Source: Sphaerolaimus hirsutus
Lineage: Eukaryota; Nematoda; Chromadorea; Monhysterida; Sphaerolaimidae
Assembly: GCA_964036195.1 (NCBI GenBank)
Contig: OZ038459.1
Span: forward strand, 2,663,206-2,727,205
Direction: 5' to 3'
DNA: 64,000 nt
Shown here: piece after piece, positions 7,072-63,921 of the stretch
How the letters are laid out: each line of letters begins with the position of its first letter
Numbering within the stretch: the first letter of the stretch is position 1
Translations under genes and position numbers: made by a program
The notes under the pieces: generated by a model
Told to the model about the DNA's origin: nothing
What the model saw: the letters and a program-made list of their open reading frames with translations, nothing else
Database searches by the model: none

Positions 7072-7310
7072 TTTCTAAATCTGCACTGGGTTTTCAGTAA
7101 AATATTCAAAAATGTCAAGTTTTTGCGCCGGAACTTTAGTTCTGGTGTTGGTTTCGTCTTGATTTTCCAGCCTTTTTATTGCTGTTTGCCGGTTGGATTT
7201 ATGTAGATTTCATTTCTTTTTCTCGTTCTTTTGAAATACAAATCCTCCTCGCGAATTTGTTTGCTCAGTATTTTTGTTCTTCCTATTTCTCTTTTTTAGT
7301 ATATTTTTAC

Positions 7311-7612
7311 TGGGGGCATTCCAAGACCCTGTGAAATGTTAAATGACATTTCAAGTGTCAAAAGTCATAAAATGTCCTGTAAAATGTAACATGTTATGTG
7401 AAAGGTCATGTAAAGTGTCAAAAGACATGTAAAATGTCCTGTAAAATGTAACATGTTATGTAAAATGTCATGTTAAGTGTCAAAAGTCTGTAAAATGCCA
7501 TGGAAAATGGCAAACACGTTTTACATGACAAGGGCACTTTACATGACTTTTGACACTTTGCATGAAAATTTACATTTTACAAGACATTTTACAGGGTCTG
7601 AAAGTGGGACCT
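7311..7612. mobile_element. Family A2 element (intergenic)
   Basis: Starts TGGGGGCATTCCAAGACCCT and ends ACAGGGTCTGAAAGTGGGAC. The arms carry TCAAAAGTCATGTAAA words. 7613-8085 is unassigned. Confidence 0.7.
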
Positions 7613-8085
7613 GAAAAATTAAGATTCTACCTTGATCGCATTCTATTCACGGCCCGTTGATTTTTTTGTACGCCTTTCAGAAATTTAGGACGGCCCGCAT
7701 TTTTTATAAATATATTTCTGTCTACGAGTCATTTCATTCCCAGTATTTTATTTTGACCAGAAAATTGCATTCCGTGACAAAAATGCGTCTGCTTCCAACC
7801 AGAAATGCCATTTTGAGGTGTTTTTTTATATTGTTAAATAGCGTGTTGCATAGTTTCGAAGGCGAAATTAAGTCACTTTATTTTATATTTGCGCGGCACT
7901 TGTGAATGCGGGGCCGATTTCAAATTTGGATGTGCGTAAGCGTAGCCACCTTTGTGCTCATCTAAACATCCATTTCTGGGCTAAAATGCCGGCTTTTTCA
8001 CCTGGGCCGCAATTCAATTTGAATGTAGGGCGCTTGCTTGACACTGTTAAAGGCGCGTCGTTTAAAGGCACAATTTCAGGGCTTT

Positions 8086-23366: not shown

Positions 23367-23690
23367 TCAGAATTTCCTGATTAACTGCGACGCGCCTGGG
23401 GAACACCTTGTATTTAGAAAATATCGGGCGCCCCGGCGGCGCGCTGCACAACTTTCAACTTGGCCGATTTGCTCACAAATTTCATTTGGGCGTTCCGAAA
23501 GTCGTGCACACAATGGCCCATGTTCACTTAGAAGGAAAGGCACATGTTTGGCACACCACACATTGAAAATGAAAATTGGCAATATTAATTTGAACTCTTT
23601 TGGCAAGCGCATAACTAAAAAGGTCCTATCTTCAATCATCTGAATTGCATGAAATTTCTCTGCCATCATTTGCATTTCAACCTCCAGGGG
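23367..23690 (-). pseudogene. Open reading stretch of unknown origin
   Basis: On the minus strand about 107 codons are open, containing EKFHAIQMIEDRTFLVMRLP, HVPFLLSEHGPLCARLSERP and NEICEQIGQVESCAARR. It has no start of its own: upstream it runs into the family A element 23690-23882, whose end here reads CTGCCCCCTGGAG. I do not recognise the family. The composition looks more protein-like than most chance frames here, so it may be a transposon or gene relic. A chance frame is also possible. Confidence 0.2.
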
Positions 23691-23882
23691 GCAGTCCCAA
23701 GCCCTGTAGAGTATAAAGTAAAGTGTCAAATGTAAAGTCAAATGCAAAGTAAACTGTCATCAAAACAAAAAGAAAAGATTTTATTACTGAACTTTGCATG
23801 ACAATTGACAGTTTACTTTGCACTTGACTTTACATTTGACACTTTACTTTAAACTACAGGGCTTGGGACTGCCACCAGAATA
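23690..23882. mobile_element. Family A1 element (intergenic)
   Basis: Starts GGGGGCAGTCCCAAGCCCTG and ends GGGCTTGGGACTGCCACCAG; the loop is CAAAACAAAAAGAAAAGATT. 23883-24464 holds a partial family C start (ACTGTATTTGCTTGAGTAAT) and unassigned DNA. Confidence 0.85.
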
Positions 23883-31200: not shown

Positions 31201-31289
31201 ATGATAGTGATTTTTTGAAATATTCATACCATTTTCCAAATTAGGGGCTGAGTTTACAGGAGTTTCCAAACTAGGGGCTGTGTTTACAG

Positions 31290-33060
31290 GATTTAGAGGG
31301 GGTCCCCATGGGGTGCCATTTTTGGGGGGTCTCCAGGGGGTGCCATTTTCTGGAGGTACATATGGGGGTGCCATTTCAAGGGGGTCCACATGGGATGCCA
31401 TTTTTTGGGTGGTCCCCAGGGGTGCCATTTTTTGGTGGTCCTCAGGGGGGTGCTATATTTTTTTTGCAGGGGGGGGGGGTCCATATGGGGTGCCATTTTG
31501 AGGGGGGGTCCCCAGGGGGTGCCATTTTTGGACAGTCCCCAGGGGGAGCCAACTTTGGGTGGGTCCCCAGGGGGTGCCATTTTTGTGGGGGTTCCTAGGG
31601 GGTGCCATGTTTGGGGGGTCCCCAGGGGGTGCTATTTTTGGGGGGTCCCAAGGGGGTGCCATTTTTAGGGGGTCCCTAAGGGGTGCCATTTTCTGGTGGT
31701 CCTCAGGGGGTGCCATATTTGTGGGGCCCTAGGGGGTCCCATTTTTGGGCGGTTCCCAGGGGGTGCCACTTTTGGGGGGTTCCCCAGGGGGTGCCATTTG
31801 GAGGGGGGTCCCCATTGGGGTGTCAGTTTTTGCAAGCCTCTGAGAAGTGGGTACCTAAAGCAGGATTCTCTCCAACCTTCAGTTGGGTTTTGTAGAGTCA
31901 CCAGGGGGAGCCAACTTTGGGTGGGTCCCCAGGGGGTGCCATTTTTGTGGGGGTTCCTAGGGGGTGCCATGTTTGGGGGGTCCCCAGGGGTGCTATTTTT
32001 GGGGGGTCCCTAAGGGGTGCCATTTTTGGGGGGTCCCTAAGGGGTGCCATTTTTTGCTGGTCTTCAGGGGGTGCCATATTTGTGGGGCCCTAGGGGGTCC
32101 CATTTTTGGGCGGTTCCCAGGGGGTGTCACTTTTGGGAGGTTCCCCAGGGGGTGCCATTTGGAGGGGGGTCCCCATTGGGGTGTCAGTTTTTGCAAGCCT
32201 CTGAGTAGTGGGTACCTATAGCAGGATTCTCTCCAACCTTCAGTTGGGTTTTGTGGTTCTCTACAATTTATACCACAAGGATTTACAAACACAAAAAGAA
32301 CAGCAAAGCACAAATGTAACCAATTGAAGATTACAACAAAGTTTGACACCTTGCAAAAACCACACTATCATATCACAAAACCTATACCACACAGAATGCA
32401 CAGGGTTCCCAGGGGGTGCCACTTTTGGGAGGTTCCCCAGGGGGTGCCATTTGGAGGGGGGTCCCCATTGGGGTGTCAGTTTTTGCAAGCCTCTGAGTAG
32501 TGGGTACCTATAGCAGGATTCTCTCCAACCTTCAGTTGGGTTTTGTGGTTCTCTACAATTTATACCACAAGGATTTACAAACACAAAAAGAACAGCAAAG
32601 CACAATTGTAACCAATTGAAGATTACAACAAAGTTTGACACCTTGCAAAAACCACACTATCATATCACAAAACCTATACCACACAGAATGCACAGGGTCC
32701 CCAGGGGGGTGCCATTTTTGGAGAGTCCCCAGGGGGAGCCAACTTTGGGTGGGTCCCCAGGGGGTGCCATTTTTGTGGGGGTTCCTAGGGGGTGCCATGT
32801 TTGGGGGGTCCCCAGGGGGTGCTATTTTTATGGGGTCCCAAGGGGGTGCCATTTTTGGGGGGGCCCTAAGGGGTGCCATTTTCTGGTGGTCCTCAGGGGG
32901 TGCCATATTTGTGGGGCCCTAGGGGGTCCCATTTTTGGGCGGTTCCCAGGGGGTGCCACTTTTGGGAGGTTCCCCAGGGGGTGCCATTTGGAGGGGGGTC
33001 CCCATTGGGGTGTCAGTTTTTGCAAGCCTCTGAGTAGTGGGTACCTATAGCAGGATTCTC
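31290..33060. repeat. G-rich minisatellite (GGGTGCCATTTTTGGGGGGT)
   Basis: About 28-bp units of GGTCCCCAGGGGGTGCCATT with variants. It is interrupted by a longer module (GTGTCAGTTTTTGCAAGCCT, then CTCTCCAACCTTCAGTTGGG) ending at about 31890, 32250, 32550 and 33080, and by a spacer (ACCACAAGGATTTACAAACA to CACACAGAATGCACAGGGT) at 32255, 32555 and 33080. Confidence 0.9.
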
Positions 33061-33706
33061 TCCAACCTTCAGTTTGGTTTTGTGGTTCTCTACAATTTAT
33101 ACCACAAGGATTTACAAACACAAAAAGAACAGCAAAGCACAAATGTAACCAATTGAAGATTACAACAAAGTTTGACACCTTGCAAGAACCACACTATCAT
33201 ATCACAAAACCTATACCACACAGATTGCACACTGCACACCATCATACCAAATCGCAAACTGTCTACATTTTACTACCGAGTTTCATGCCCAACCATTTTA
33301 CAGAAGTTTACAAAAATCCATTCCAAAACATTGCATCTTTGGTATTGGTCTTGTTATTGTTGGTAGATTACATACCGCATTTCAAAACACATGCCTAGCA
33401 TGTGGGCAAACTTAACTAAAGTATCATATTTTCTCCAATGGTATTAATTGTAGAGAACCACAAAACCCGACCGAAGGTCGGAGAGAATCCTGCTAGTCTT
33501 TTACAGTTTGCTAATATTTGTCACTTTACGCTGCACTTAAAAAAACTTAAATCACACCGCGTCCCCGTTTCTCTAAAAACCACCATTCACAAACCAAAAA
33601 CATCACATTTCCCCTCGCAGACGACACATCTAAACAAATCTACAGTCAAATTGAATCAATTTAAATTCACTCTGCAACCTCCCACTTTATAACCCCCGTT
33701 GGCAAG
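33061..33706 (+). promoter_or_regulatory. Upstream flank of the FAM43-like gene
   Basis: Contains the last spacer copy and, at 33449-33497, the CTCTACAATT/ACCTTCAG module in inverted orientation (GTAGAGAACCACAAAACCCG), so an inverted repeat of more than 350 bp span precedes exon 1. No promoter element could be assigned. Confidence 0.4.
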
Positions 33707-33749: not shown

Positions 33750-36700
33750 GTGACACTTTTTAAAGTGGAGAAGTAAAAAGTTTATTTAGAAGTGGAAAGT
33801 GAAAAGTTAGAAGAAATGTGAATTTAGAAGATGTTAAAATTGAAGAGAAAAGTAAATTTATAAGTGAAAAGTGGAATGGCGAGTAAGAAGTTAGAAGAAA
33901 ATTAAATTTATTAGTGAGAAGTTGAAATAGGTAAGCAAGTTAACAAAAGTGTGAAGTGAAATTGCAACCAAATTCACAAGTGTGAAGTGAGATAGAAAAC
34001 AGCAAGAAAAAGTGAACTGGACACTTGTCTCTCAACTTTTTTAGCCTCAACTTAACTCGTCACTTCCCACCTCCAAATTCACCCTCCCTTCCAACTTCTC
34101 ACTGTCACATCTCACTAAAAACCCAAATAACCCCCCCCCCCCCAAAAAAAAAACAACAACCCCCCTAACCCCAGGCCTCCTATCATGGCCCTTCAATAGA
34201 GCCAAGCGCCGCAGGGGCATGTACGTAGTGAACGAGGCCAACCCCAGTTATCAGTGCGTTTACCTGGGCAATGTGGTCACTGTACTTGCGAAGGGGGACG
34301 ATTGCGTGGAGAAACCGTTGGCGCTCATTTGGAAGGCTTATCAGGTGGGTGGGGGGTCTCCAATGGGGGTTGGGGAGGGGGTACCCCCAAATCGAGCAGC
34401 TATCTGGCTATTTGTCCAGGAGGCAACTTTTTTGGCTACTATCCTCTGAACCCTGAATAGAGCAAAATTTTTAGAAATTGGCGCTTTTTAGTGAAAATTG
34501 GAGGAAAATCGCCAAAATTTACTTCAGACAAAAAGTAGCCCAAACTTTTCGTCTCGGATTACATGATAAATATCATAGCTGGAGCATTTCAGGGGATTTG
34601 GGGGGGGGGAGGAGTGGGCCATTTAATATCGCCCACCTAAATAGAAAAACCTACCCACGCAAAAATGTCAACTCGAAATCGCAGGCGCGTTCTCGGGCCG
34701 ACATGCGAATGCGGCTGACGATCACCAGACAGGGTCTCAAAGCGGAAACCGACGCCCAAGGCCTCACAGAATACTGGGCGGACAGGTGCCAGTCTCAGAC
34801 CCTGTAAAATGCCGTGTAAAGTGTCAAACGTCAGGGAAAGTGTGAAAAGTCATTTAAAATGCCCGGTAAAATGGCAAACGTACGTTTGCCATTTTACCGG
34901 GCATTTTACGTGACTTTTGACACTTTGCATGTCTTTTGACATTTTACAGGGCATTTTACAGGTTCTGGGACTGCCCCCAGGATCACCTACTGCGTGGCTC
35001 CGCCCACTTACCCGAAACTATTCAGTTGGGTTTATAAACACGAGGGGCGCAAAATGCGTCCCGAATTACGTTGCCACGCCGTTTTGCTGCGTCGATCGGC
35101 CGACCCGTCGATTTTGTCCGTAAAATTGGTCGATTATTTGCAGTCGGCATTGGCGGAATATCGCAGAGAAAAGGTGGCCAGAGAGAAGACTAGATTGGTG
35201 GGCACTTTGGTGGGCGACGGGTCGCTGCCTAGGTGAGTTCCGGGTACCCGGTTTCAAGGGTTTTGGTTTCGGGGTTTTTTTGTTGCGGGATTTGATTGTT
35301 TTTGGCTTTTCCCGATCTAGCAGAATCAATTCGAGTATTTACGGTTACATTTGTGTATGCGCTTTAATAGGCAAAAATAGGCGATCCACTGTACAGTGGC
35401 TGAAACCACTGAAATGTGTTAAAACTCGTTTGAATAGATTTTAGAGACAGACTATTGTTTTTGTCGTCTGGTGTGGAAATTGTTGTTGTTTTTTGTCTGA
35501 ATTTTTAACATCATTCCTTTTTATTCATTGTAAACATGAACGACGCTGTATGGACGGTAAAATAATAAAATCTGCAATGATTCAAAGCACACATGGCATG
35601 CGTATATGCATTTATTTATATACACCGTGATTACATTCCATGTAACTTGTATTTATTTGTATAAATGCTGTCGCTGTAACTGAATATTCAATTCATTCGC
35701 CCCATCAAGGGGGCTGTTCAAAAAGGGCTCTATTTTCCCTCGCTCTCAAGTTACATTAAATGACATTTTTATCACAATCCAAAAACGAATCCCACTAAAA
35801 TCTAAAAAAAATTCTAAAAAACTGTACAGACGCCGTGACGCGCTCAGTACTGGTGCCCGTCATTTCCGCCGGCCGGTAAGTAGGAGCAAATCGGCGCCGA
35901 AATTGGGCAGCATTAATGAGGATAAAGAGGCCGAAGAGGTTCGTTTTTGGATGGGTTTTTCAAATTTTGATTGTTTTTAGAATGATGTTTTTAAAATTAG
36001 ACCAGTTAGATAGGCGATTTTGTTATTTAAAACCGTTTTTACCTTTGGGTTGTGGTGTGGCTCTACGCACTAGTTTACGCCCATAATTTTCGTGACTAAT
36101 AAATCCATGGGCCTCCAATGGGAATATCCCGAAATCGGTTGGATATCTATTTATTTAAAACAAATTTTAAACGATTTTGCCCCAATTTTGACTCAAGATT
36201 CTGTTATCTTTCACCTTCAGAATAGCTATTTTTCTCTATATATGTCCCCATTTTAGCCAATGTTTACGTATAACTAGCTATTTTATCCCATTTCTAGCGA
36301 TTTTATATCCTTTTCTGCTTGTACACCTGTAAAAAGCCTCTTTATTGCTCCATACTGCAACGTTCTTAATCACTTATTGTATTGCGTAATTTGAATTTAT
36401 TTTTTCGTAAAATATTCCATCGTTTGTAGCATTCTGTACACAATTTTTTCCCACGTCCGGGTTTTCTTGTGTAAACTTGCACCCAGATAGGTTTTTTTGG
36501 CCAAAACGTCACAATGTTTGCTCTGATGTTCAATTTTTCCGTAAAGTTACCTAGCTGCGGTTTGTGAATATTTTTGCCGAAAAAGCGTATTTTTGTCTCC
36601 AGATTTTGCTAACGGTCACGTTCCACTGGCAACTTTTTGAACCTGGAATGTAAATATGTCCCTAAAAACTCCCAAATCTGGATGGAGAATTGTGTGAGGG

Positions 36701-39470
36701 CATGTGGGGAGAATACGTAAAAATAAATAAGAAACGTAATAAATAAATGTATAAAGTTCAAAAAGTTATTCAATAGTTCACATCAAATTACCTCCCCCCT
36801 CGAAATACTCCAGGTCTGACTGACCTTATTCCTGAAACTGAAAAAATATTGTACCCCTCGAGTTACCCCCCCTCAAAATTTGCACCCTGAAAAAATAAAC
36901 CCCCTGCGGTATTTCGGGGAAATACGGTCATCGTTCAAATAAGTAATAGAATAAGTTATTTTGAAGGCTCAATGGCCCCACACACACTAGTTGACATCGA
37001 CACCAAATATCAACTGGTTCCGTTCCCAATCCCAAGCTTGCATTTGAACCGTCGTTCGTTGGCTCTTCATCAAGCTTTCAATTGGGCTCAGAACCAGTTG
37101 ACATTTGGTCTCAATGTCAACTAGTGTTTGTGAGCCCAAGGGGGGAGGCACCCCCCATACCCCCACCCCCCAATCACACCCATTTACCCCCCCCCCCCTC
37201 AGGAGGAGCGCCTCTCAAACGCGCACAAGAACGGCGCTCTACTGGAAGAGCTCGACGAGGTCGACCTGGACGACGAGGCCGACTTCGAGTGCTGCGCCGA
37301 CGACGAGTGCAGCTCGAGCGCCAAGAGCGGCAGCGGGCGTAGGAGGAGGGACATGGAGGAGATGGAGAAGGTGGGTTGGGGGGGGGGGTGGAGAGTGCCC
37401 TGGAAAATGGCGAATGTCATGTAAAATGCCCTGTGAAATGGCACATGTTGTGTAAAATGCCCTGAGAGATGGCAAATGTTGTGTGAAATGCCCTGTGAAA
37501 TTTTAGATGTCTTGTAAAATGCTGTGTGAAATTTGAAATGTCCTGTGAAATGAGAAATGTCATGTAAATTGTCAAAAGTCATGTAAAATGAACATGGATT
37601 TTACAGACATAACTTTTGACACTGGATGTCATTTGACATTTTCCAGGGCATTTTACTTGATTTTTGACACATTGCATCTTCATGACATTGGCCATATTCC
37701 AGGACATTTTACATGACTTTTGACACTTAACATGACTTTTGCCTTTTTCTAATGTATTTTACATGACCTTTGACACTTTACATGACAGTTGCCATTTTAT
37801 ATAACAGTTGCCATTTTACATGACATTTGCCATTTACCAGCGCATTTTACATGCCATAAACACTTAGTCACTGGACACTTTCACCCAGGACGACACCAAA
37901 GCGTCACACGCGGCCGCCGCTGCAGCCGCCGCCGCGGCCATTTGCGTCCGGACGGATTTGATCGGAGAATTGGGCAGCACGTCCAGCGGCGCCGATACCC
38001 CCAGTCCGGGTGGCGATTCGGTTAATGACGCCGTGTTTTATGAGAGGTGTCAAAATGTGAGTTTGAGGTTTTGGGTGCTGGTTTTAGGGTGTTGCTCTGT
38101 GTTTACATTAATAAACGTACTTCCCCCGGAAAACGTAAAATTGAGTAATTTTTATAAATTTTGCCGCTCAAATGACTAATTCTCATATCCTTTTGCACAT
38201 TTTAACCTTCAAAATAACTATTCGATATGCATTTGGCTTATTTTAAGTAATTTTTGTTTAGGGTAATTTTCCCATATTTTCAGCTTTTTCTCCATTCTAT
38301 GCCTTGAAATAGTCTATCGAAATTCTCTATGAAATACGTTTTCTATACTCATGTACTCAGAAAAAGTATACCTAAACACGAGTACAGGTACTGTATCAAG
38401 AGGAAATTTTTACGTAAAATCAGTACTCGATTATACGTATTTTTCGAGTAAACGTAAATACGTTCCAACGACTTTTTTATGTTAAGGTAGGCACAATCTA
38501 CAACCCCCCACCCAACCCCCCCCCCCCCCCCTCAGGGCTCGCCCATGCTCCTGCACGTGGACCTGGAGATCGGCAACGACCTGGACCGGCTCCGCCTGGC
38601 CTGCTGCAGCGGCGACAACAACAGCAGCGCCGGCGGCAGCGCCCCAGTCGCCCGGCGGCACACGGCCGACACCGACTGCAACTCGGTCGCCAGCGACAAT
38701 TGCAGTTTCGACTCGGCTTATCACGATAAGAGCAGCACTGATACTGATAATGGCAATGGGGTGGGCAGGGATGGGGCGATTGTGGGGGGTGTGAAGCATA
38801 GGTGGGTTTTTTGGTGTGTTTTTTATTGTTATTTTTTGTGGTTTTACTTGGACGTGTGCCAAGAAGACTGACTGGAATACTTTTTTTGGTATTTCTGTAC
38901 GCGTACATTTGGATCAACCAACTTTTCACGATACACATAAAATATTTCAGCGGGGTTGTCGCCAATATAAATGACAGTAACGGCTAGGAATGGCACTTGA
39001 TTTTTTGCGTAATTTTTTGATTTCTCAGCGCATCTCAACCCCTCGTGTTTGCATTGACAATTCCCAATAATTTTCCAAACACTAGTTGAAAATTCCGAAC
39101 TAGTGTTTGGAAAATAAATTTGAAATTGAAACGTTGACAATGTGGGCTATTGGCGGGGCGGGGGGGCTCGGCACCGCAAATATCTTTGATTGTGCCGGTG
39201 CGCCGCCTCCCCATAGGGCAGATGAATAAATGCGCTGGGTGCCGATTTTTTTTACATATTTTTTTATTGAATCTGATTTTTCGAACAATAGTAGCACCCT
39301 CCACCTAAAACACACTCTTTATAACCATTTTACTCTCCCATAAAACTACCTGAATTCCCCACAGTAAACCCGTTCCCGTTACACTTGGCCCGTTGCCAAC
39401 TGCGAACCAGAACGACGATGACCTAAAAGCTGAAGATTCTACTCCGTCTGGCTTCATCATGTCGTTATGA
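33707..39470 (+). CDS. FAM43: FAM43-like PTB/PID-domain protein, complete nine-exon gene
   Basis: Joined coding exons are 33707-33749, 34175-34344, 34685-34785, 34981-35232, 35830-35938, 37203-37370, 37889-38056, 38536-38801 and 39365-39470. They total 1383 nt, or 460 residues plus TGA. All introns are GT-AG and every junction keeps the frame. A phosphotyrosine-binding (PTB/PID) fold spans about residues 30-170, with YLGNVVTVLAKGDDC, FSWVYKHE and LRCHAVLL, followed by RSKSAPKLGSI near residues 206-217. From memory these match the vertebrate FAM43A/B signatures YLGN, FAWVYRHE, LRCHAVL and RSRSAPKLGSI. The tail is acidic, then low-complexity (alanine run, serine and asparagine). Length is close to vertebrate FAM43A, just over 400 residues. 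PTB domains bind peptide motifs on partner proteins, but the cellular role of the family is poorly known. A G-rich minisatellite ends about 650 bp upstream. The family call is strong; exon 1 is the least certain part. Confidence 0.88.
33750..34174 (+). other. FAM43-like intron 1
   Basis: A 425-bp GT-AG intron (GTGACA to CCCCAG), phase 1. It is rich in AGAAGTGAAAAGT-type purine motifs, contains no recognisable element, and ends in a C-run/A-run next to the acceptor. Confidence 0.55.
34175..34344 (+). CDS. FAM43: FAM43-like exon 2, start of PTB domain
   Basis: Encodes residues 15-71, including LLSWPFNRAKRRRGMYVV and the diagnostic YLGNVVTVLAKGDDC. The acceptor is CTAACCCCAG and the donor is CAG|GTGGGT (phase 0). 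The basic KRRR cluster just before the PTB fold resembles the RSKRKK stretch that I recall at the same place in FAM43A. The following intron starts in a G-rich stretch. Confidence 0.88.
34345..34684 (+). other. FAM43-like intron 2
   Basis: A 340-bp intron, phase 0. Its first part (GGGGGTACCCCC, then AGCTATCTGGCTATTTGT and TTGGCTACTATCCTC) resembles interior words of the hAT-5 element at 22134-22910, so a degraded copy of that family probably sits here. Confidence 0.5.
34685..34785 (+). CDS. FAM43: FAM43-like exon 3, PTB middle strands
   Basis: Encodes residues 72-105 (RMRLTITRQGLKAE and LTEYWAD). This corresponds to the KLTVSAQGI strands of the PTB fold as I recall them from FAM43A. It starts in phase 0 after ATCGCAG and ends GAC AG|GTGCCAG in phase 2. 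The donor GT is the first two bases of a family A element that forms the whole next intron. Confidence 0.86.
34786..34980 (+). mobile_element. Family A element forming FAM43-like intron 3 (introner-like)
   Basis: The 195-bp intron is entirely one inverted-repeat element. It starts GTGCCAGTCTCAGACCCTG and ends TTCTGGGACTGCCCCCAG. The reverse complement of the 3' end (GGGGGCAGTCCCAGAACCTG) pairs with the 5' end, and the arms continue through TAAAATGCC. The interior forms a second hairpin around CGTACGTTTGCC. The donor GT and acceptor AG are the outermost bases of the element. Exon homology on both sides fixes the splice sites independently. AG stands at the end of the upstream exon and again at the intron end, compatible with a very short target duplication but not proof of one. 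Confidence 0.85.
34981..35232 (+). CDS. FAM43: FAM43-like exon 4, PTB C-terminal half
   Basis: Encodes residues 106-188 plus a split arginine. It contains ITYCVAPPTYPKLFSW, VYKHEGRKMRPELRCHAVLL and a helical segment LVDYLQSALAEYRREK, as expected for the last strands and C-terminal helix of a PTB domain. The acceptor CTGCCCCCAG is the terminus of the family A element in the preceding intron. The donor is CCTAG|GTGAGT (phase 2). Confidence 0.9.
35233..35829 (+). other. FAM43-like intron 4
   Basis: A 597-bp AT-rich intron (GTGAGT to ACAG), phase 2. No family A, C or hAT terminus was recognised in it. Confidence 0.6.
35830..35938 (+). CDS. FAM43: FAM43-like exon 5, SAPKLGSI motif
   Basis: Encodes residues 190-225. 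The stretch RPVSRSKSAPKLGSINED is the second conserved FAM43 signature. The acceptor is TGTACAG and the donor is GAAGAG|GTTCGT (phase 0). A strong-looking GTAAGT lies inside the exon at 35875-35880, upstream of the conserved motif, so it is probably not the normal donor but could give a truncated alternative product. Confidence 0.85.
35939..37202 (+). other. FAM43-like intron 5 with repeat insertions
   Basis: A 1264-bp intron, phase 0. It holds a degraded family C stretch (about 36790-36930, CTCGAAATACTCC to GGTATTTCGGGGAAATACGG) and a CACTAGTTGACA-family element (about 36978-37135). The last 60 bases before the acceptor are almost all C. Confidence 0.6.
37203..37370 (+). CDS. FAM43: FAM43-like exon 6, acidic region
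   Basis: A 56-codon, phase 0-0 exon: ALLEELDEVDLDDEADFECC and an SSSAKSGSGRRRRD linker ending MEEMEK. Codons are GC-rich (GAC, GAG, AGC), unlike the flanking DNA. The acceptor tract is almost pure C, ending CCCTCAG, and the donor AAG|GTGGGTTGGG runs into a G tract. FAM43A also has an acidic C-terminal half, but this stretch is too biased to align by eye. Confidence 0.75.
37371..37888 (+). repeat. FAM43-like intron 6, mostly family A arm sequence
   Basis: A 518-bp intron, phase 0. From about 37397 to 37862 it consists of family A words in opposite orientations: TGTAAAATGCCCTGTGAAAT on the left half and CATTTTACATGACTTTTGAC on the right. The outer 26 bases on each side do not match the element termini. 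Either the element sits inside an older intron or the ends have diverged. Confidence 0.65.
37889..38056 (+). CDS. FAM43: FAM43-like exon 7, alanine run
   Basis: A 56-codon, phase 0-0 exon with a ten-alanine run followed by ICVRTDLIGELGSTSSG and GDSVNDAVFYERCQN. The acceptor is TTCACCCAG and the donor is AAT|GTGAGT. The alanine run is encoded by mixed GCC, GCT, GCA and GCG codons. DLIGELG recalls the LISDLGELSF segment that I remember from FAM43A, supporting the frame. Confidence 0.75.
38057..38535 (+). other. FAM43-like intron 7 with partial hAT-3 element
   Basis: A 479-bp intron, phase 0. Bases 38326-38480 carry the TACGTTTTC and GTAAACGTAAATACG words of the hAT-3 family, but no complete pair of termini. 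The intron ends in a C tract before CTCAG. Confidence 0.55.
38536..38801 (+). CDS. FAM43: FAM43-like exon 8, Ser/Asp/Asn-rich tail
   Basis: Encodes residues 338-425 plus a split serine: PMLLHVDLEIGNDLDRLR, a serine/glycine linker, then CNSVASDNCSFDSAYHDKSS. The acceptor is CCCTCAG preceded by a C run and the donor is CATAG|GTGGGT (phase 2). There is no recognisable domain. Codon bias and phase continuity with exon 9 support coding. Confidence 0.72.
38802..39364 (+). other. FAM43-like intron 8 with a short palindrome
   Basis: A 563-bp intron, phase 2. At 39072-39115 it has a small inverted repeat (TTTTCCAAACACTAGTTG against its complement) carrying the CACTAGTTG terminus found elsewhere in the window. 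The rest is unassigned. Confidence 0.55.
39365..39470 (+). CDS. FAM43: FAM43-like exon 9, terminal
   Basis: Completes the split serine codon and encodes KPVPVTLGPLPTANQNDDD, LKAEDSTPSGFIMSL and TGA. The acceptor is TCCCCACAG. The protein therefore ends at residue 460. The phase match and immediate stop make it a convincing last exon, although the sequence itself has no recognisable domain. Confidence 0.7.
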
Positions 39471-46160: not shown

Positions 46161-46254
46161 AATCCGACTGTGTAGCCCACACAGAAGATGAATGTATCCC
46201 ACCAAATTGGGAGGGGGGGTGTGGTGATGCGTCAGCCGAGGGAGGCCGCACATG

Positions 46255-46475
46255 GGGGCAGTCCCAAGCCCTGTAAAGTGTAAAGTAAAGTGTCAAATGT
46301 AAAGTCAAATGCAAAGTAAAGTGTCAATCAAAACAAAAAAGAAAAGATTTTATTACTGAACTTTGCATGACAATTGACAGTTTACTTTGCATTTGACTTT
46401 ACATTTGACACTTTACTTTACATTTGACACTTTACTTTACACTTTACAGGGCTTGGGATTGGCACCTGACCCACT
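46255..46475. mobile_element. Family A1 element (intergenic)
   Basis: Starts GGGGGCAGTCCCAAGCCCTG and ends GGGCTTGGGATTGGCACCTG. About 55 bp to its right are also shared with the inverted copy near 50565-50850. 46480-47040 is unassigned apart from TGAATCTCACATGCCC repeats at 46625-46800. Confidence 0.85.
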
Positions 46476-54713: not shown

Positions 54714-57700
54714 GTTGGTTTTTATATCGTCTCTAAGGCCCTACGCACATTTGTTGGCCACAAAAAGCCAGACAACCATCACAGACGCTTAACTCTCACA
54801 TAATTGTCAACCTATGTTCCCTCGTTTCCCCCATAAAAAATACCCGTACTCACTTACCCGCGTACTGTTTGAAAGTACGCAAGTACAGAAAACGTATTTC
54901 TGGTAGGTGTTGTTTTATGTTTTTGAAGGTAAGGAAGAAAAGGGTGAAAAAGTCTATTTTAGCCAAAAAGACTAGCGTGAAATGGCCGAAAAGGCTGAAA
55001 ATAGGCGAAATTGGAACATAAAAATGGAGAAAATTTTAAACCTAGTGATTTTGAGAGAAAATTATGACAAAATTTCTCAAAAACACTCACTTTTACATTA
55101 TCCTGGGAAAAGTATTTCACTCACATTTACCCATGAGGAAAAGTTAAAAAATTACTTTACGTTTTTTATACTCAGTGGTGAGTAAATTATAAATACTTTA
55201 CGTTTGCGTATACTTTGAAAAAAGTACTTTCTTGAGTATTTTTAACAACTGTGCAAAAAAGCCGGACAAGCCATCATCCACCCAACTCTCAGCGCGGCCA
55301 GACCGTGTCGCCGTCGTCGGCCGCGCCGCTGCACGTGCTGCCGTCGACTTCATGCAGCAGCGGCGCGGCGGCCGGCCGCAACTGCAACGCGCCAAAATCC
55401 GTCGCCGAACTGCCGGTGCCAGTCCCGGACCCTGTGAAACACCCTGTAAAATGTCAAGTTTACAGTGATACCGTATTTCTTCTAATCGAACGGCGCCGTT
55501 CTATTTTTTTCGTCATTTTTTTTTACCTGTCGTTCTATTGGAGGCTGCCGTTCTTTTTTTTACCAGACATTTGCATACGATTCATGTACGATGCATGTAA
55601 ACCTACCATAACCCATCTGAATAATGAACCAAAAAATTTACAGTTTTTTCATCATAATATTTCTTTTTTACTATGGAATAATTAATTACGAAATTTATCA
55701 CAAGATTTTATTCATTCAATTATGATAGGTTTTCATACTAGGTGTGCTGTCCGCCGAGTATAAACAAAACCAAATGTGAAAACAACCCCCATATCATAGT
55801 TCTGATAGCACCCTTGATGTTCTCGCCACCAATTTTTATAATATTTTTGTGTTTTGGCACCCTTGAAACGTAATTTCTATCTGCCGTTCTATTGGAGGCT
55901 GCCGTTCTATTCTTTTCGTGGGTGTAAAAACGTGCCAAAACCTGCCGTTCTATTGGAGGTGCCGTTCTATTGGAGATATTCCGTTCTATTAGAAGAAATA
56001 CGGTATGTCAAAAGTCATGTGAAAGACCCTGTAAAATGTCAAATTAAAAATGTCAATGTGTTAAAAGTCATATAAAATGCCCTGGAAAAAGGCAAACGAG
56101 ATCGGGCATCTTACACGACTTTTCACACTTTCCGTGACATTTCACATTTTACTGGGTATTTCACATTTTACAGTGTGTTTTACAGGGTCTGAGACTGCCC
56201 CCTGGACGAGCCGCCGTCCTTCGGAAAAAGATTTTGCCGCCGCGTCCACAGCGTGGGCAAGTGGCTGTCGAACTTTTTGAAGTCCATTTTGCCAATTGTG
56301 GGATTGGTGGTTTTCTCGGTGCGTTGTTTTTGCTTTTAATGTGTCAGGGAAAGTGATGTAAAAGCGCCATGGCGCTGGCGCCTGGCGCTAGCGATAAAGC
56401 AAAAAGCGCCATGGTTGTTTTGGCGCTTGGCGCTATTTTTCTGTGGCGCCATTGGCGCTTGGCGCCATGCCGATGAAAAGCGCCATGGCGCTTTTGGCTC
56501 TTGGCGTTAATTCTGGCCGGCGCCAGGAACAAAATGCGTGGCGCTGGCGCTTGGCGCTAGCGCCAAAGCAAAAAGCGCCATGGCCATTACGCTCTGGCGC
56601 CATTGGCGCTTGGCGCTAAGCGTCGGAAAAGCGCCATGGCGCTTTTGGCGCTAGGCGCCAAAGTCGTGGCGCTTTCTACATCACTAGTCAGGGATTTAAA
56701 GGTCTTATTTATGTGGTGAAATATTGTTGTTCCACACGCACTAGGTAGCTTACAAGAAATACTACCGCAACTGATAAATCTGTTTGAAACTCACCATAGT
56801 GAATCATTTTTGATCGCCATCAAAAGAAGCACAGTTGTGAAATTGCACCTGGGTACTGGGAAAGTGTAAAATATTTTTTTTTGCACACATCCCCGTTTTA
56901 TACTTTTGAGAAAGCGACAAACGTGTACAAAAGGAAAAATTTCACACATGTGCTGAAAATAGGGATATACCGTATTTGCTTGAATAGTTCCCCCTTGAAT
57001 AATCCCCCCCTCGAATAATCCACCCCTGTAAGACGAGTAAGGAAATAATAATTTCCCCCTTGAATAATCACCCCTTTTTTCAAGATTTGACTAATTTGTT
57101 CTACCTAATTTTAACAAAAATGGCACGTTATTGTGTTTATAAGGCATGTTTCGGGAAATGAGTTGATGGAAACGTTCTTGAAAATTTTGACAAAATAATA
57201 ATTTCCCCTTGAAAAATTCCCCCCTCGAATAGTTCCCCCTCAAAAATGTCTGAAGAAATAATAATCCCCCAGGGAGATTTTTCAAGCAAATACGGTGAAT
57301 TATATTTGTCACAGTTGTTTTGGTTGAACAATGTGTATTTGTAAAGTGTATTTACGGTTACGCTTATCAGAAATACCAGTATTTTAACAACTCTGAAAAG
57401 CGGTTGACGGACTCCTCATTTTATTTAGTAAACTCGAAAGGGTCAAAAGCTGATTTATCACACCGACATTTCGGCCCGAAGACTACCGTACATCCTGGAA
57501 TAAGTCCTCCCCCTCGAATAACTCCCCCTCGAATAACTCCCCCCTCGAATAACTGCCCCCTCGAATAACTCCCCCTCTTGCGAGCGTGAGGAAAAAATAA
57601 CTCCCCCTCGAATAACTCCTCCTATGATCGATGCAAATGAGTCGTGTCACATTAAAAAACATTTCGATGAAGCCAGACAGACCAAAACAGCCATGGTCTG

Positions 57701-60700: not shown

Positions 60701-63700
60701 CACACCCAGACCCTGTAAAATGTCCTGTAAAATGTAAAATGTAAAATGTCATTCAATGTAGGTATTCTGTTTTGTCACATGCCTATACAGGCCAAAAACA
60801 GGCCTTTACTTTACTATGATTCTTCACGAAAATTTTCGACTAAATTATGCCCCTCTCTCGATTAATCCCCTCAAAATTAGCACTCAGCAAAAATAAACCC
60901 CCGTGGGGTATTTCGTGGAAATATCGTTTACTAATAGGTATACTCGGCTGACCGCATGCTATGCATTTTTCTGAAGGAAACACTCCATCATGACGTCATC
61001 ATTTATAATACAAAAATAATTATAGCAAAAAAGAAAAAAAACATTTCGGGAAAAAAACATTCCTCATTTGTATGCGACTCCACCTTTTTCTCTTTTTAAA
61101 TATTTTTAGTTTTGTGAAAGTGCATAGGTACATAAGTATCCAACTCGCGCGTTATCGACCAAGACATAAATAATTTTGGGTGCTTACTTTGTGGTCCGCC
61201 GAGTATACTCAGATTTAAAAACCACAATTTCCCTGAAACTTTTCACAGATGGCGACAAAGACCAATGTCAAATGACCCCACAGCTGGTTTTCCATTTGTA
61301 CTTGCATTAGTGATGCTCATTTTGTGGCTTTTCGCCGCCACAATATTGTTCTCCATTATGGAAGATTGGAGTTTTCTAAACGCGTTTTATTTCATGTTTC
61401 AGAGCTTGACTACGATTGGACTGGGTGCGTTTTGATTTTTTTTTGATTTTTTTTTAACGGTGAAATGGAGTGGTCGCTTTTTTGAGATTGAAACTTGGAG
61501 ATGGAATTTCTGACCACCGGGGAATTTCAGTCACACCCAATCTGAATTTTTATGTACAGTGTAAAATGCGATGCAAATGTCATATAAAATATCAAATATT
61601 ATACCGTATTTCCTCAAATTACCCCCCGTGGGGTTTATTTTTTCACAGTGAAAATTTTGAGAGAAAAACGTGAAAAATGCAACAATAACCACCATTTGTA
61701 AGTTTTTACAGCCTTATATAAGGATGTAGGTAGATGGTATAAACGATGTTCTAACGTAACACAGTAAGTGTTTTGAACGTCTGTTATGCATTTCCCTGAC
61801 CACAAATACATAGTGCCCATTTTGAGGGGGGGTATTTTGAGGGGGGTATTTCGAGGGGGGTATTTCGAGGGGGGTATTTCGAGGAGGGGTATTTCGAGGG
61901 GGGGTATTTCGAGGGGGGGGTCTTTCGTGGAAATACGGTAGTTACTTTAGTGGTAATTTGACTGTAAATACATGAAACTTTACTTGACATTTCACAGGTT
62001 GCAGGACTTGACGGCAAATTGTGAAGTGTCAAAGCTTAAAGTAATGTCGTGTAAAATGACAATTACAATCATTAAAAACTTTTGACATTTTGCGTTCCAT
62101 TTAGCAAATTTACTTTGCATGCCATTTGACACTTTAGTGACACTTTACATGGCACGGGACTGCCTTAGGGTGGCAAACAGCACCAATAAAAAACCCAAAT
62201 TCCAGGCGATATCACCCCAAAAGACAAGGGCAATCTTTTACTTGGCTTTTTGAACATATTCGGCGGCATGGCCATGCTCAGCATGATGTGGAACCTGGCG
62301 CAGATGAAATTGGAAGCGTTCACTGCGGAAATGTCGCTGAAAATCAAGCAATCTTGGCTCACATTGGCGGAAAAGAGTGCGGATGATAAGATTTTGGTGG
62401 TTGAAAATAATGATGCGGTCAGGTGCCACTCCCGCACCCTGTAAATCGCTCTGTTCTATGTCAAATGCCATGCAACTGTCAAAAGTCATGTAAGCGTCGC
62501 AAATGGTGTGGGGTGGTGGGGGGGGGGGGTAACACCAAAATAGACCTGCTATCTATCTATTCCAGAAACAAAACCAGAAACAAAACTCTAGTGAACCCCC
62601 CCCCCCCCCCTCCCCCAAATCTGCCATTTACCGTATATCCTCGAAGAAGTCCCCAGGGGAGTTATTTTTTCATCATCGTTATTGAGGGGGAGTTATTTTT
62701 TCATCAGAAAACTTGGACTCGATTCATTGTAAATATGAATGCATTCTGTCAACTCGTGTAATCCAGGTATTTAACAGTTTTACAAAAACTAAAGGTGTGT
62801 ATACACCGCAAACACATTATGTATCTGCTGTCGCTGCCATACATTACCATTCTTTTTTATTTTCATGGATCATTTTTGTCAAGTTTGTACCATATTTTTC
62901 ACCCAGAGTGGGGGAGTTATTCAAAAGGGGGATTTATTCAAGGGGAAGGATTTATTATTTCGTCAGAGGTTTTGAGGGGGAGTTATTCAAGGGGGGGAAG
63001 TTTTTCGATGGGGGGTCTTATGCGAGGATATACGGTATCTGGAATGATTGTTGTGGACTATTTATCCCAGTTTTTGCTCGAAATCACTGAATTTTTTAAA
63101 CCGTTTTATACATCTTCACCTTCAAAATCCAGGACATTTTATACGCTTTTGAACCGTTGCATGACATTTTACATTTTACAGTGCATTTTACAGTGTCTGG
63201 GAGTGCCGCCCAGTAAAAAGGGAGGCGTTTCGAACAAGAAAAAGTTGGCAAAGAAAGCGGTGAAAAAGCGCTTGGATCAGGAGAACACTATATTTTCGAA
63301 AATGATGGGAAACTCGTTGAGGTTTGTATATTGTAATACATGATTTACATTAGTATATTGTTCCCAGGTTTCTACGGACAAATATTTTTTGGGAGATTTT
63401 CTGAAATTATACTTTCTCAAAATTATTTATTTTTTAGCAATTATAGCCCCACCCAACCCAACAACCAACTAGTGACGGAATGGCGTCAAGGCGTTATGGC
63501 GCTGGCGCCAATTAAGAGCGCCGCAGGGTGCCGCGCCATGGCGCCATTTTTCTGGCGCATTCCGTCACCACACAAAGCCTACGTACGCAGGGACAAACTA
63601 ATCGAGGACTACGAGAAAATGACGCGCACGCAGCACGTAGCCGTGCAAACGTGCGTCTCCACAGTGGAAGTTAGCGTGCAAACTGAACAGGTATCACTCC

Positions 63701-63921
63701 CGCACCCTGTAAAATGCCCTGGAAAATGTCAAATGTCATGCAAATGGACAAAAGTCATGTAAAATGTCCTAAAATGTACATTTGCCATTTTGCAGGACAT
63801 TTTACAGGGTCTGGGAGTGCCTGCAGATAAAACTGGTGAAACGGAAATTACACCCGGGCACGGGCGCCGCCCCCAGTGCCGCTGGCAGTGCCACGCCTAG
63901 GGCCACCCCTTATGCGCACAG
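54660..63921 (+). CDS. Two-pore-domain (TWK/KCNK-type) potassium channel, 3' partial
   Basis: Twelve exons are visible: 54660-54713, 55293-55415, 56211-56318, 57941-58117, 58555-58634, 59059-59288, 60546-60681, 61249-61424, 62206-62422, 63214-63321, 63591-63690 and 63827-63921. The gene runs past the window in phase 2. All junctions are GT-AG and phase-consistent. The order is TM1 (ILPIVGLVVFSIVGGLLFYW), an extracellular cap, pore 1 (YTTIGYGDIAPSTNGG), TM2 (IFTIVYAIIGIPLAMYCLTE), a basic intracellular loop, TM3 (FVLALVMLILWLFAATILF), pore 2 (SLTTIGLGDITP), TM4 (LGFLNIFGGMAMLSMMWNLA) and a basic cytoplasmic tail. GYG and GLG are K+ selectivity filters; two subunits assemble into a background (leak) K+ channel in the plasma membrane. 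The family is certain. Exons 1, 2 and 5 are less secure. The introns are loaded with transposons, and three of them end exactly at family A termini or close to them. Confidence 0.92.
54714..55292 (+). other. K2P intron 1 with partial hAT-3 element
   Basis: Phase 0. It contains hAT-3 words from about 54838 to 55252 (ACCCGTACTCACTTACC; AAAACGT; the end TTTTAACAACTGTG) without a matched left terminus. Confidence 0.5.
55293..55415 (+). CDS. K2P channel exon 2, cytoplasmic N-terminus
   Basis: Encodes a low-complexity leader RGQTVSPSSAAPLHVLPS, then GRNCNAPKSVAELP. The acceptor is CAACTCTCAG and the donor CTGCCG|GTGCCAG is in phase 0. GC-rich codon use contrasts with the flanking hAT-3-like intron sequence. 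The two other frames are also open but are arginine-rich and do not match the phase of exon 3. The donor is the first base pair of a family A terminus. Confidence 0.6.
55416..56210 (+). mobile_element. Family A element as K2P intron 2, with family D inserted inside
   Basis: The intron starts GTGCCAGTCCCGGACCCTG and near its end reads GGGTCTGAGACTGCCCCCTG, the two termini of one element. Inside lies a complete family D element (55469-56005), which in turn holds AACCTACCATAACCC-family sequence (about 55597-55760). The 3' terminus reads CTG where the other introns have CAG, so the acceptor used is probably GACGAG six bases downstream. The phase fits (0 to 0). Confidence 0.75.
55469..56005. mobile_element. 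Family D element inside K2P intron 2
   Basis: Starts TACCGTATTTCTTCTAATCG and ends TTAGAAGAAATACGGTA, with repeated GCCGTTCTATTGGAGG words near both ends. Confidence 0.8.
56211..56318 (+). CDS. K2P channel exon 3, TM1 start
   Basis: Encodes PPSFGKRFCRRVHSVGKW, then LSNFLKSILPIVGLVVFS, the beginning of TM1. The phase 0 start requires the acceptor GACGAG|CCG. The element terminus CTGCCCCCTG lies six bases upstream and would have been the acceptor if it read CCCCCAG. The donor is TCG|GTGCGT (phase 0). Confidence 0.8.
56351..56686. mobile_element. hAT-1 element (GCGCC type) in K2P intron 3
   Basis: Starts AAGTGATGTAAAAGCGCC and ends GGCGCTTTCTACATCACTA. The 8-bp target duplication GTCAGGGA is present at 56343-56350 and 56687-56694. 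The interior is made of GCGCCATGGCGC and GGCGCTTGGCGC words. Confidence 0.88.
56968..57297. mobile_element. Family C element (TTGCTTGAATA type) in K2P intron 3
   Basis: Starts TACCGTATTTGCTTGAATAG and ends TTTTCAAGCAAATACGGTG, with internal TCCCCCTTGAATAATC words. Confidence 0.75.
57484..57906. mobile_element. Family C-type element in K2P intron 3
   Basis: Starts TACCGTACATCCTGGAATAA and ends TTCGAGGATTTACGGTA, with at least six CCCTCGAATAACTCC words inside. Its right end is 34 bp before exon 4. Confidence 0.75.
57941..58117 (+). CDS. K2P channel exon 4, TM1 end and cap
   Basis: Encodes IVGGLLFYWIETQSVYTHNQ, completing TM1, then the helical extracellular cap segment SMKENFERLKNGLFENIMKD up to NAIEGKVR. 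The acceptor is TTTTTAAG and the donor is CGG|GTGAGT; phase 0 at both ends. A membrane helix ending in YWIE is typical for this channel family. Confidence 0.9.
58149..58413. mobile_element. Family C1 element in K2P intron 4
   Basis: Starts TACCGTATTACCTCGAATTA and ends ATTTCGAGGAAATACGGTA. The interior (ATGCATTTCCCGGACCACAA; GTTTTGAACGTCTG) is shared with copies at 3481, 20434 and 61602, defining subfamily C1. The intron is 58118-58554. Confidence 0.85.
58555..58634 (+). CDS. K2P channel exon 5, cap loop (boundaries uncertain)
   Basis: In the frame fixed by exon 4 (phase 0) and exon 6 (phase 2), the exon reads LRDGGSVNQRSQRHSVFDQI RTTKTS, ending at the weak donor TT|GTGTGG. The acceptor may be GTCAG at 58551-58554 or AATCAG at 58576-58581, which is in the same frame. 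A hAT-1 element starts ten bases later (58645), inside its GTGGCCAC target duplication. If the element is removed, the exon would extend through GHNILIALL to a much better donor, GTAAGT, now at 58960, also in phase 2. So the exon may have been shortened or broken by the insertion. Confidence 0.45.
58645..58931. mobile_element. hAT-1 element at the exon 5 edge of the K2P gene
   Basis: Starts TAGTGATGTGAAAAGCGCCA and ends GCGCTTTTACATCACTA. The perfect 8-bp target duplication GTGGCCAC is at 58637-58644 and 58932-58939. The 287-bp interior is GCGCCA-rich. Eight-base duplications and TAGTGATG-type ends are typical of the hAT superfamily. Confidence 0.9.
59059..59288 (+). CDS. K2P channel exon 6, pore 1
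   Basis: Encodes MRCAAEKAAVRIKTCKQQKK, NNF-type loop residues, YAKHSQHELDPITAIYYVCT and the first selectivity filter TTIGYGDIAPSTN (GYG codons at 59258-59266). The acceptor is CAAATAG and the donor is AATG|GTTTGT (phase 1), making a split glycine with exon 7. The match to the K2P pore is unambiguous. Confidence 0.95.
59289..60545 (+). other. K2P intron 6 with family A element split by hAT-3
   Basis: Phase 1. It holds a G-rich stretch (59350-59440), a family A copy from about 59600 (GGTGCCAGTCCCAAGCGCTG) and a hAT-3 element inserted near its right end. No exon is seen inside. Confidence 0.7.
59763..60473. mobile_element. hAT-3 element in K2P intron 6
   Basis: Starts CAGAGTTGCGAAAGCG and ends ATTTTAACAACTCTG. 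The perfect target duplication CTTTACGG is at 59755-59762 and 60474-60481. Subterminal TTACGCTTACGCTTTC words repeat on both sides. In the centre, 60140-60229 is a short acidic reading frame (MDPDDDFIAVDSTNSTLEDE...) ending TAA, possibly a relic of an encoded protein. Confidence 0.88.
60546..60681 (+). CDS. K2P channel exon 7, TM2
   Basis: Encodes GKIFTIVYAIIGIPLAMYCL, then TEIGSLFCKIIIVSYRHLRA LVPF. TM2 has the highly conserved GIPL motif. The acceptor is CTTTTCAG and the donor is CAG|GTGAGC (phase 2). Spliced to exon 6 it gives APSTNGGKIFTIVYA, the usual K2P arrangement after the first filter. Confidence 0.95.
60682..61248 (+). other. K2P intron 7 with family A fragment, family C fragment and family G element
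   Basis: Phase 2. A family A-like start (ACACCCAGACCCTGTAAAAT, 60703) is followed by a partial C element (60840-60930) and a TATACTCGGC-ended element (60950-61200). Confidence 0.6.
60950..61200. mobile_element. Family G element (TATACTCGGC ends)
   Basis: Left end GTATACTCGGCTGACCG, right end TGGTCCGCCGAGTATAC. The interior includes CACTCCATCATGACGTCATC and CGCGCGTTATCGACC. An inverted, older copy lies at 4930-5189. Confidence 0.7.
61249..61424 (+). CDS. K2P channel exon 8, TM3 and pore helix 2
   Basis: Encodes the loop WRQRPMSNDPTAGFPF, TM3 (FVLALVMLILWLFAATILFS), IMEDWSFLNAFYFMFQ and SLTTIGL plus a split glycine. The acceptor is TTCACAG and the donor is CTGG|GTGCGT (phase 1). The E-W-F-AFYF pattern before the filter is a family hallmark. 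Confidence 0.95.
61425..62205 (+). other. K2P intron 8 with family C1 element
   Basis: Phase 1. It carries the C1 element 61602-61940 and family A-like words from about 61990 to 62163 that end CACGGGACTGCC, 42 bases before the acceptor. Confidence 0.65.
61602..61940. mobile_element. Family C1 element with expanded subterminal repeat
   Basis: Starts TACCGTATTTCCTCAAATTA and ends TTTCGTGGAAATACGGTA. The right side has seven consecutive GGGGTATTTCGA-type words, against one or two in sister copies. Confidence 0.82.
62206..62422 (+). CDS. K2P channel exon 9, filter 2 end and TM4
   Basis: Completes the GLG filter and encodes DITPKDKGNLLLGFLNIFGG MAMLSMMWNLA (TM4), then the cytoplasmic segment MKLEAFTAEMSLKIKQSWLT and DDKILVVENNDAV. 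The acceptor is AATTCCAG. The donor GTCAG|GTGCCACTCCC (phase 2) is the terminus of a family A element. Confidence 0.94.
62423..63213 (+). mobile_element. Family A element as K2P intron 9, with nested family C
   Basis: Starts GTGCCACTCCCGCACCCTG and ends TGTCTGGGAGTGCCGCCCAG. The reverse complement of the end (GCGGCACTCCCAGACACTG) pairs with the start. A family C-type element (62629-63036) is inserted inside. The donor and acceptor are the outermost bases of the family A termini; phase 2 is preserved. Confidence 0.82.
62629..63036. mobile_element. Family C-type element nested in intron 9
   Basis: Starts TACCGTATATCCTCGAAGAA and ends TGCGAGGATATACGGTA, with GGGGGAGTTATTC words inside. Confidence 0.78.
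63214..63321 (+). CDS. K2P channel exon 10, lysine-rich tail
   Basis: Encodes a strongly basic segment, KKGGVSNKKKLAKKAVKK, then RLDQENTIFSKMMGNSL. It starts directly at the family A terminus TGCCGCCCAG and ends TTGAG|GTTTGT (phase 2). The cytoplasmic basic cluster could contact membrane lipid, but this is a guess. Confidence 0.85.
63322..63590 (+). other. K2P intron 10 with a hAT-1-like inverted repeat
   Basis: Phase 2. At 63472-63568 TAGTGACGGAATGGCG pairs with CGCATTCCGTCAC, and the interior has GGCGCTGGCGCC words. Flanking octamers do not match well, so the insertion is old or altered. Confidence 0.6.
63591..63690 (+). CDS. K2P channel exon 11, cytoplasmic tail
   Basis: Encodes DKLIEDYEKMTRTQHVAVQT, then CVSTVEVSVQTEQ. 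The acceptor TACGCAG lies about 20 bases after a degenerate hAT-1-like inverted repeat. The donor is GAACAG|GTATCACTCCC (phase 0). The VQT...VQTEQ stretch is repetitive in sound but too short to call a motif. Confidence 0.85.
63691..63826 (+). mobile_element. Family A element forming K2P intron 11 (introner-like)
   Basis: The whole 136-bp intron is one element, starting GTATCACTCCCGCACCCTG and ending GTCTGGGAGTGCCTGCAG. The reverse complement of the end reads GGCACTCCCAGACCCTGTAA and pairs with the start. The arms continue as TAAAATGCCCTGGAAAATGTC against GGACATTTTACAGG, with TGTACATTTGCC in the loop. No other insertion is present. Confidence 0.86.
63827..63921 (+). CDS. K2P channel exon 12 (gene continues past window)
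   Basis: Encodes IKLVKRKLHPGTGAAPSAAG, then SATPRATPYAH plus a split codon. It starts right after the element terminus TGCCTGCAG and ends CACAG|GTTTGT (phase 2). A further exon must lie to the right. A new TACCGTATTT-type terminus starts at 63947, already in the next intron. Confidence 0.75.

Follow-up and report, generated by a model that had tools for sequence, protein, structure and literature searches.

The window, that is, the whole 64,000-nucleotide (64-kb) stretch of Sphaerolaimus hirsutus DNA analysed here, contains a FAM43-like gene on its plus strand, in which the original prediction placed an intron at 34786–34980. This intron has 195 nt, GT...AG ends and phase 2. The upstream exon finishes with GCGGACAG, the intron runs from GTGCCAGTCTCA to GACTGCCCCCAG, and the next exon opens with GATCACC; at the boundaries themselves CAG is followed by GTGCCA, and CTGCCCCCAG by GAT. 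The flanking exons encode a PTB domain. The Pfam profile PID_2 (PF14719) matches the spliced protein over residues 19–161 (E = 1.5e-59 for the core; E = 2.6e-66 for the longer model) in one stretch that runs over the junction of WADR and ITYCV. Homology thus fixes the splice sites, just as had been proposed. Without splicing, the frame meets a stop soon past WADR. The coding regions of vertebrate FAM43A/B are not known to contain introns. The palindrome at this place has two arms (34785–34881 and 34882–34978) of 97 nt each, which are 87% complementary and separated by zero spacer. With ten bases on each side, the intron RNA is calculated to fold at −135 kcal/mol against −57 kcal/mol for shuffles (z = −16), and a fold of this strength would keep both splice sites near each other. 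The claim that the intron is a single inverted-repeat transposon was borne out with one refinement: the element proper is best read as 34786–34977 (192 bp) and the final CAG of the intron as the target-site duplicate of the exonic 34783–34785. The features of this gene are as follows.

34685..34785, plus strand: FAM43-like coding exon with CAG at its end, in which ...WAD is followed by the AG of an Arg codon (PID_2 across the junction)
34783..34785, plus strand: CAG, the copy of the 3-bp CWG target-site duplication that lies in the exon (as other copies of the element show)
34786..34980, plus strand: intron, one family A element (34786–34977) plus the duplicated CAG (palindrome, consensus and junction check)
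34978..34980, plus strand: CAG, duplicated target providing the AG acceptor (duplication established on other copies)
34981..35232, plus strand: next FAM43-like coding exon, ITYCV... (PID_2 homology)

Elsewhere in the gene, intron 5 (37371–37888) consists mostly of decayed family-like repeats; it may be old and share this origin, or it may have been invaded later. Some ordinary host introns in the window (34345, 37203, 38536) start G-rich (gtgggtgggggg) or finish C-rich (ccccccccccctcag), and such ends could pair much as the element ends do. A long repeat region at 31150–33400 carries open frames of the GGVPxGCHF type on both strands, and 22303–22650 is a run of N.

The terminal motif of the element, with up to three mismatches allowed, occurs 23 times in the window and not once in 100 shuffles. 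Two further introns with both family A ends lie in a two-pore K+ channel gene on the plus strand, which was identified by the Pfam domain Ion_trans_2 (E = 1.2e-35). Removal of either intron joins two open frames in phase. The main copies outside FAM43 are listed below.

62423..63213, plus strand: channel intron with CAG before it and T after it, both ends being family A element ends (GTGCCACTCC...GCCGCCCAG) with other sequence between them; its junction falls outside the conserved domain
63691..63826, plus strand: channel intron of 136 nt, a single shorter element (GTATCACTCC...GAGTGCCTGCAG) between CAG and ATA, phase 0; junction outside the conserved domain
55416..56204, plus strand: possible fourth case, GTGCCAGTCC...GACTGCCCCCTG between CCG and GAC, with a coding-like exon on either side, upstream of the channel exons; splice sites putative
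7310..7613, minus strand: family A copy, flanked on both sides by CAG when read in element orientation; no gene recognised
23685..23878, minus strand: copy of subfamily B, of the AAGCCCTGTAAAGTGT type, flanked on both sides by CTG when read in element orientation; no gene recognised

The element at 55416–56204 has CTG at its 3' end, lacks AG at the element end and has an uncertain acceptor; judging from their position, the coding-like exons around it probably belong to the channel gene. The remaining copies in the window lie where no gene was recognised or within apparently ordinary introns. One of the latter, at 60694 in the channel gene, lies roughly twelve bases past a donor of ordinary appearance. 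At 46251–46468 and 50627–50843 there are inverted copies of one subfamily B element with a flank in common on one side, which suggests local duplication rather than two insertions.

A genome-wide look at family A found more than a thousand exact core 5' ends (GTGCCASTCCCAGACCCTGTAAAATG; 1122 matches in the 348.5-Mb genome, 0 for the reversed control). The 3'-type end (GGGGCASTCC...) has 1171 exact matches, again with 0 for the reversed control, so both types of end are similarly frequent. When CWG was required in front and as many as two mismatches were allowed, the 5' pattern gave 8055 and the 3' pattern 7040 matches, two sets that overlap because the patterns differ at only two positions. 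Among the exact core 5' ends on contig C1, 77 of the first 100 follow a CWG (P = 1.5e-94 against an expectation of 1/32). No exact end motif was found in viral contigs, a set from which records near this genome are possibly excluded. The family size, with many copies apparently within coding sequence, suggests that the FAM43 element belongs to an introner family that has been mass-producing introns.

Two sets of copies were studied. The positional sample comprises 99 of the first 100 exact matches to CWG plus the 5' end on contig C1, the missing one (L009) being already in the other set; a recognisable 3' end is present in 89 of these 99 copies. The similarity-chosen set comprises the 39 other best-scoring places in the genome; the reference copy is itself exonic, and the set leans slightly to CAG ends. 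A consensus was built from 41 copies (these 39, the FAM43 element and one channel intron), to which individual copies are 93–98.5% identical and the short channel copy 80%. Its arms (2 × 99 bp) are identical save at three positions, all in or beside the splice sites: the middle base of CWG, which comes from the host target, and intron bases 2 (T of GT versus G) and 4 (C versus G). GT at one end, with G at the corresponding mirror position of the opposite end, was observed in 74 of the 89 positional and 33 of the 39 similarity-chosen copies.

The end triplets (5'/3') of the 89 positional copies are CAG/CAG in 38, CTG/CTG in 28, CTG/CAG in 10, CAG/CTG in 2 and other combinations in 11. The triplets agree in 66 of the 78 copies with CWG at both ends (Fisher P = 1.3e-10), and the result holds without eight near-duplicate loci (36 CAG/CAG, 26 CTG/CTG, 9 CTG/CAG and 2 CAG/CTG; P = 7.6e-10). 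The 3' triplet was allowed a shift of up to two bases to reach CWG, a rule with no bias to CAG or CTG. This agreement indicates that CWG is a 3-bp target duplication, and the possibility that it is part of the terminal inverted repeat (TIR) is ruled out by the same sample; the similarity-chosen set supports duplication weakly (P = 0.027), and the window copies alone are indecisive. An 8-bp duplication of the hAT type, with ends that begin at CAG, was rejected by eye, as the flanks beyond CWG differ. C stands before the 5' triplet in 52 and G after the 3' triplet in 48 of the 89 copies, which points to CCWGG as the preferred target.

All 39 similarity-chosen copies have a core of 190–196 bp flanked by CAG or CTG, and once by CGG. 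When the element is removed and the frames are read in the direction that places GT first, the empty junction is open over ±75 nt in 38 of them, L035 being the exception, and 30 of the 39 are open in antisense. The open span has a median of 375 nt in sense and 333 nt in antisense against 177 nt at control positions; GC at the junctions is 0.60 against 0.43 in controls. Since antisense frames are also open, open frames alone carry no strand information, and codon scores are too noisy to decide the coding strand of individual copies; the argument is carried by Pfam matches. Thirty-seven spliced products were scanned, all but those of L032 and L043, which nearly duplicate L014 and L019. A Pfam domain crosses the junction in 13 of them, ten with E < 1e-4 (7tm_1, ABC_tran, UCH, kinase, Ig, PhoLip_ATPase_C, Glyco_transf_92, DHC_N1, 3-PAP and GH63) and three weakly (FYVE_2, VWD and Tmemb_cc2). 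No junction-crossing domain was found in the other 24 scanned products, of which 23 have no match at all and one (L022) has TPR repeats adjoining the junction. The end triplets of the 13 domain-crossed copies are CAG/CAG in five, CTG/CAG in six and CTG/CTG in two. An antisense Pfam control gave no match in ten frames drawn from 20 loci, a weak control in that six of the ten loci already had a sense domain.

Of the 89 positional copies, 66 are open in sense, against fractions of 0.28–0.30 for random or CWG positions and 0.47 for CCWGG positions in the window (P = 2e-19 and 3e-7), and 61 are open in antisense. Many of these copies thus appear to sit in exon-like sequence, their exact share being imprecise. 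Pfam was run on 20 protein-like sense frames picked by eye, a selection that is a poor gauge of the exonic share. E1_dh (L082) and AMP-binding (L099) clearly cross the junction, VWD (L063) and DUF4715 (L092) do so weakly, 7tm_1, PI-PLC-Y and TUDOR adjoin it, and 13 of the 20 frames are without a match.

The following course of events would account for the FAM43 intron. A short non-autonomous palindromic DNA transposon would have inserted at a CAG in the FAM43 coding exon and duplicated its 3-bp target (CWG). The element opens with GTGCCA, which would then act as the 5' splice site directly behind the original CAG. At its other end CTGCCCC, together with the duplicated CAG, would serve as the 3' splice site. 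Excision of GT...CAG would exactly restore the mRNA that existed before insertion, and repetition of such insertions into exons across the genome would make family A an introner family. The usual donor is GTRAGT, which GTGCCA matches poorly. We hold with high confidence that the FAM43 intron was gained from a CWG-duplicating palindromic transposon of an introner family; the anatomy of the element, the target duplication, the genome-wide copies and the restored reading frames and domains are read directly in the sequence, and we infer both the splicing and the direction of change. The earlier suggestion of intron gain by an introner is thereby supported, as both ends of the family are found at exon–exon junctions of many unrelated genes. 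Predicted introns of this kind number three in two genes of the window, 13 of 37 scanned copies are crossed by a domain, and the family has TIRs and a CWG duplication, as introners may.

CTG targets bear on the acceptor. The 5' end lies at CTG in 41 of the 89 positional copies, and a sense insertion there would read ...CTG, then GT....CCCC CTG, an intron ending in TG. Three sense CTG/CTG copies lie within domains: L033 (kinase), L045 (P4-ATPase) and L082 (E1_dh), the last in a gene that we take to be BCKDHA. For L082, no in-frame, stop-free GT-AG alternative was found with the donor at −30 to +60 and the acceptor at −60 to +45, and use of an AG 12 nt downstream was ruled out, none being in frame. 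In-frame GT-AG alternatives number four for L033 and 18 for L045, and every one changes residues. Keeping the L082 protein intact would take a TG 3' splice site. Taking both sets together, the 3' triplet is CAG in 18 of 50 CTG-target copies, while only 3 of the 66 copies at CAG targets have CTG there (P = 1.5e-5; the positional sample by itself gives 0.012). With near-duplicates removed, 16 of 46 CTG-target copies carry an AG end and 3 of 63 CAG-target copies lack it (P = 6e-5). This asymmetry is as expected if splicing selected for AG, although the slight lean of the similarity-chosen set to CAG ends has to be borne in mind. It counts against a reading in which part of the family does no more than disrupt exons, some supposed introns being insertions into dead genes or dead alleles that are never spliced out. 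That reading draws on the CTG/CTG insertions (28 of the 89 positional copies), which have no AG at the element end. We regard it as improbable, since the FAM43-like gene keeps an intact PTB frame and has itself as the sole close match in the genome, besides one weak match of 41% on contig C4. If CTG-target copies are spliced at TG, one mechanism would yield two kinds of intron: an instant GT-AG intron at CAG, and at CTG a GT-TG intron that the spliceosome would remove until a T-to-A change supplies AG. On this view splicing would have shaped the palindrome, which is asymmetric only at the donor, and a large class of introns ending in TG would be tolerated. We offer this extension tentatively, as an idea that we would bet somewhat against.

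An alternative origin is that an old FAM43 intron was invaded by a transposon and its original sequence was then deleted all the way to both splice sites. Family copies are indeed seen within apparently ordinary introns, such as the one at 60694 described above. However, exact trimming at both ends would have been needed in FAM43, twice in the channel gene and again in the 13 domain-crossed genes, and a CWG duplication with one exonic and one intronic copy fits insertion into an exon; invasion of an old intron is therefore very unlikely. The spread of copies as spliced RNA by reverse splicing, as proposed for fungal introners, agrees with the coincidence of copies and predicted introns, but we find it scarcely credible given the CWG duplication, the terminal inverted repeats, the nearly perfect palindrome, the copies where no gene was recognised and the matched CTG/CTG pairs, for which it does not account.

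Insertion of a DNA transposon into exons raises the matter of its class. The NuwaI group of PHIS (PIF/Harbinger-ISL2EU-Spy) transposons is described as producing a 5'-CWG-3' duplication, having TIRs that usually start with GGG and occurring only in animals (PMC4482050). Family A resembles it in the CWG duplication, as expected of a NuwaI MITE, with matching triplets in 66 of 78 copies and another 3' triplet in 11 of 89. Its 3' end is mostly GGGGC (48 of 89 positional and 26 of 39 similarity-chosen copies) and may correspond to the GGG start. It differs from that description (PMC4482050) in its 5' end, which starts with GTG (GTGCC in 89 of 89, as the search pattern demanded), and introns are unmentioned in the part of that account drawn on here. 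The genome has at least 163 matches to the profile DDE_Tnp_4. Two of these loci were read for a cognate transposase, and neither is bounded by family ends within about 2 kb. Family A is probably moved by a transposase of the NuwaI/PHIS type. At one locus (L152, about 551–749 on the reverse strand), a subfamily B palindrome forms an apparent intron, with CTG before GTGGCAATC...TTGCCCCCAG and GAC after it, that separates two in-phase exons of a Harbinger-type transposase gene. Ten of the listed places share a DDE_Tnp_4 score of 33.4 bits, L152 among them. From this one locus, subfamily B apparently forms introns as well.

Introners are already known and are a leading explanation of bursts of intron gain; family A adds an unusually legible mechanism, a large animal family in which every step (target, duplication, donor and acceptor) can be read. 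CAG is a usual exon end, and the link to a CWG-duplicating group of transposons offers a mechanistic reason why new introns fall after CAG. The CTG insertions form a natural test of how far a 3' splice site can vary. In the tunicate Fritillaria borealis, non-canonical introns have reportedly been traced to inverted-repeat elements; family A would likewise be a source of inverted-repeat introns in an animal, and differs in that most examined copies have GT...AG ends. In the titles and abstract openings of open-licence literature, no work was found that links introners to CWG duplications, and the single work there that names both 'introner' and 'Harbinger' concerns fungal genomes. Gozashti et al. 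(2022; PMC9860276) have described introners as introns whose shared sequence reaches close to both splice sites. They are made by non-autonomous elements, are enriched in genes and in many cases carry TIRs and short duplications (PMC9860276). In most of the families described there, insertion followed by splicing keeps the length of the mRNA, and among animals and land plants introners are given for two groups only, both of them animal (PMC9860276). The introners of Chrysochromulina carry their own donor and take the acceptor from a 4-bp duplication, with no TIR (PMC9860276). Family A follows the same division of labour, as the element brings the donor and the duplication gives the acceptor, whereas its duplication is a 3-bp CWG and its ends are TIRs. 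Set against the introners described in that work, family A stands apart as a nearly perfect palindrome whose asymmetry lies at the splice sites.
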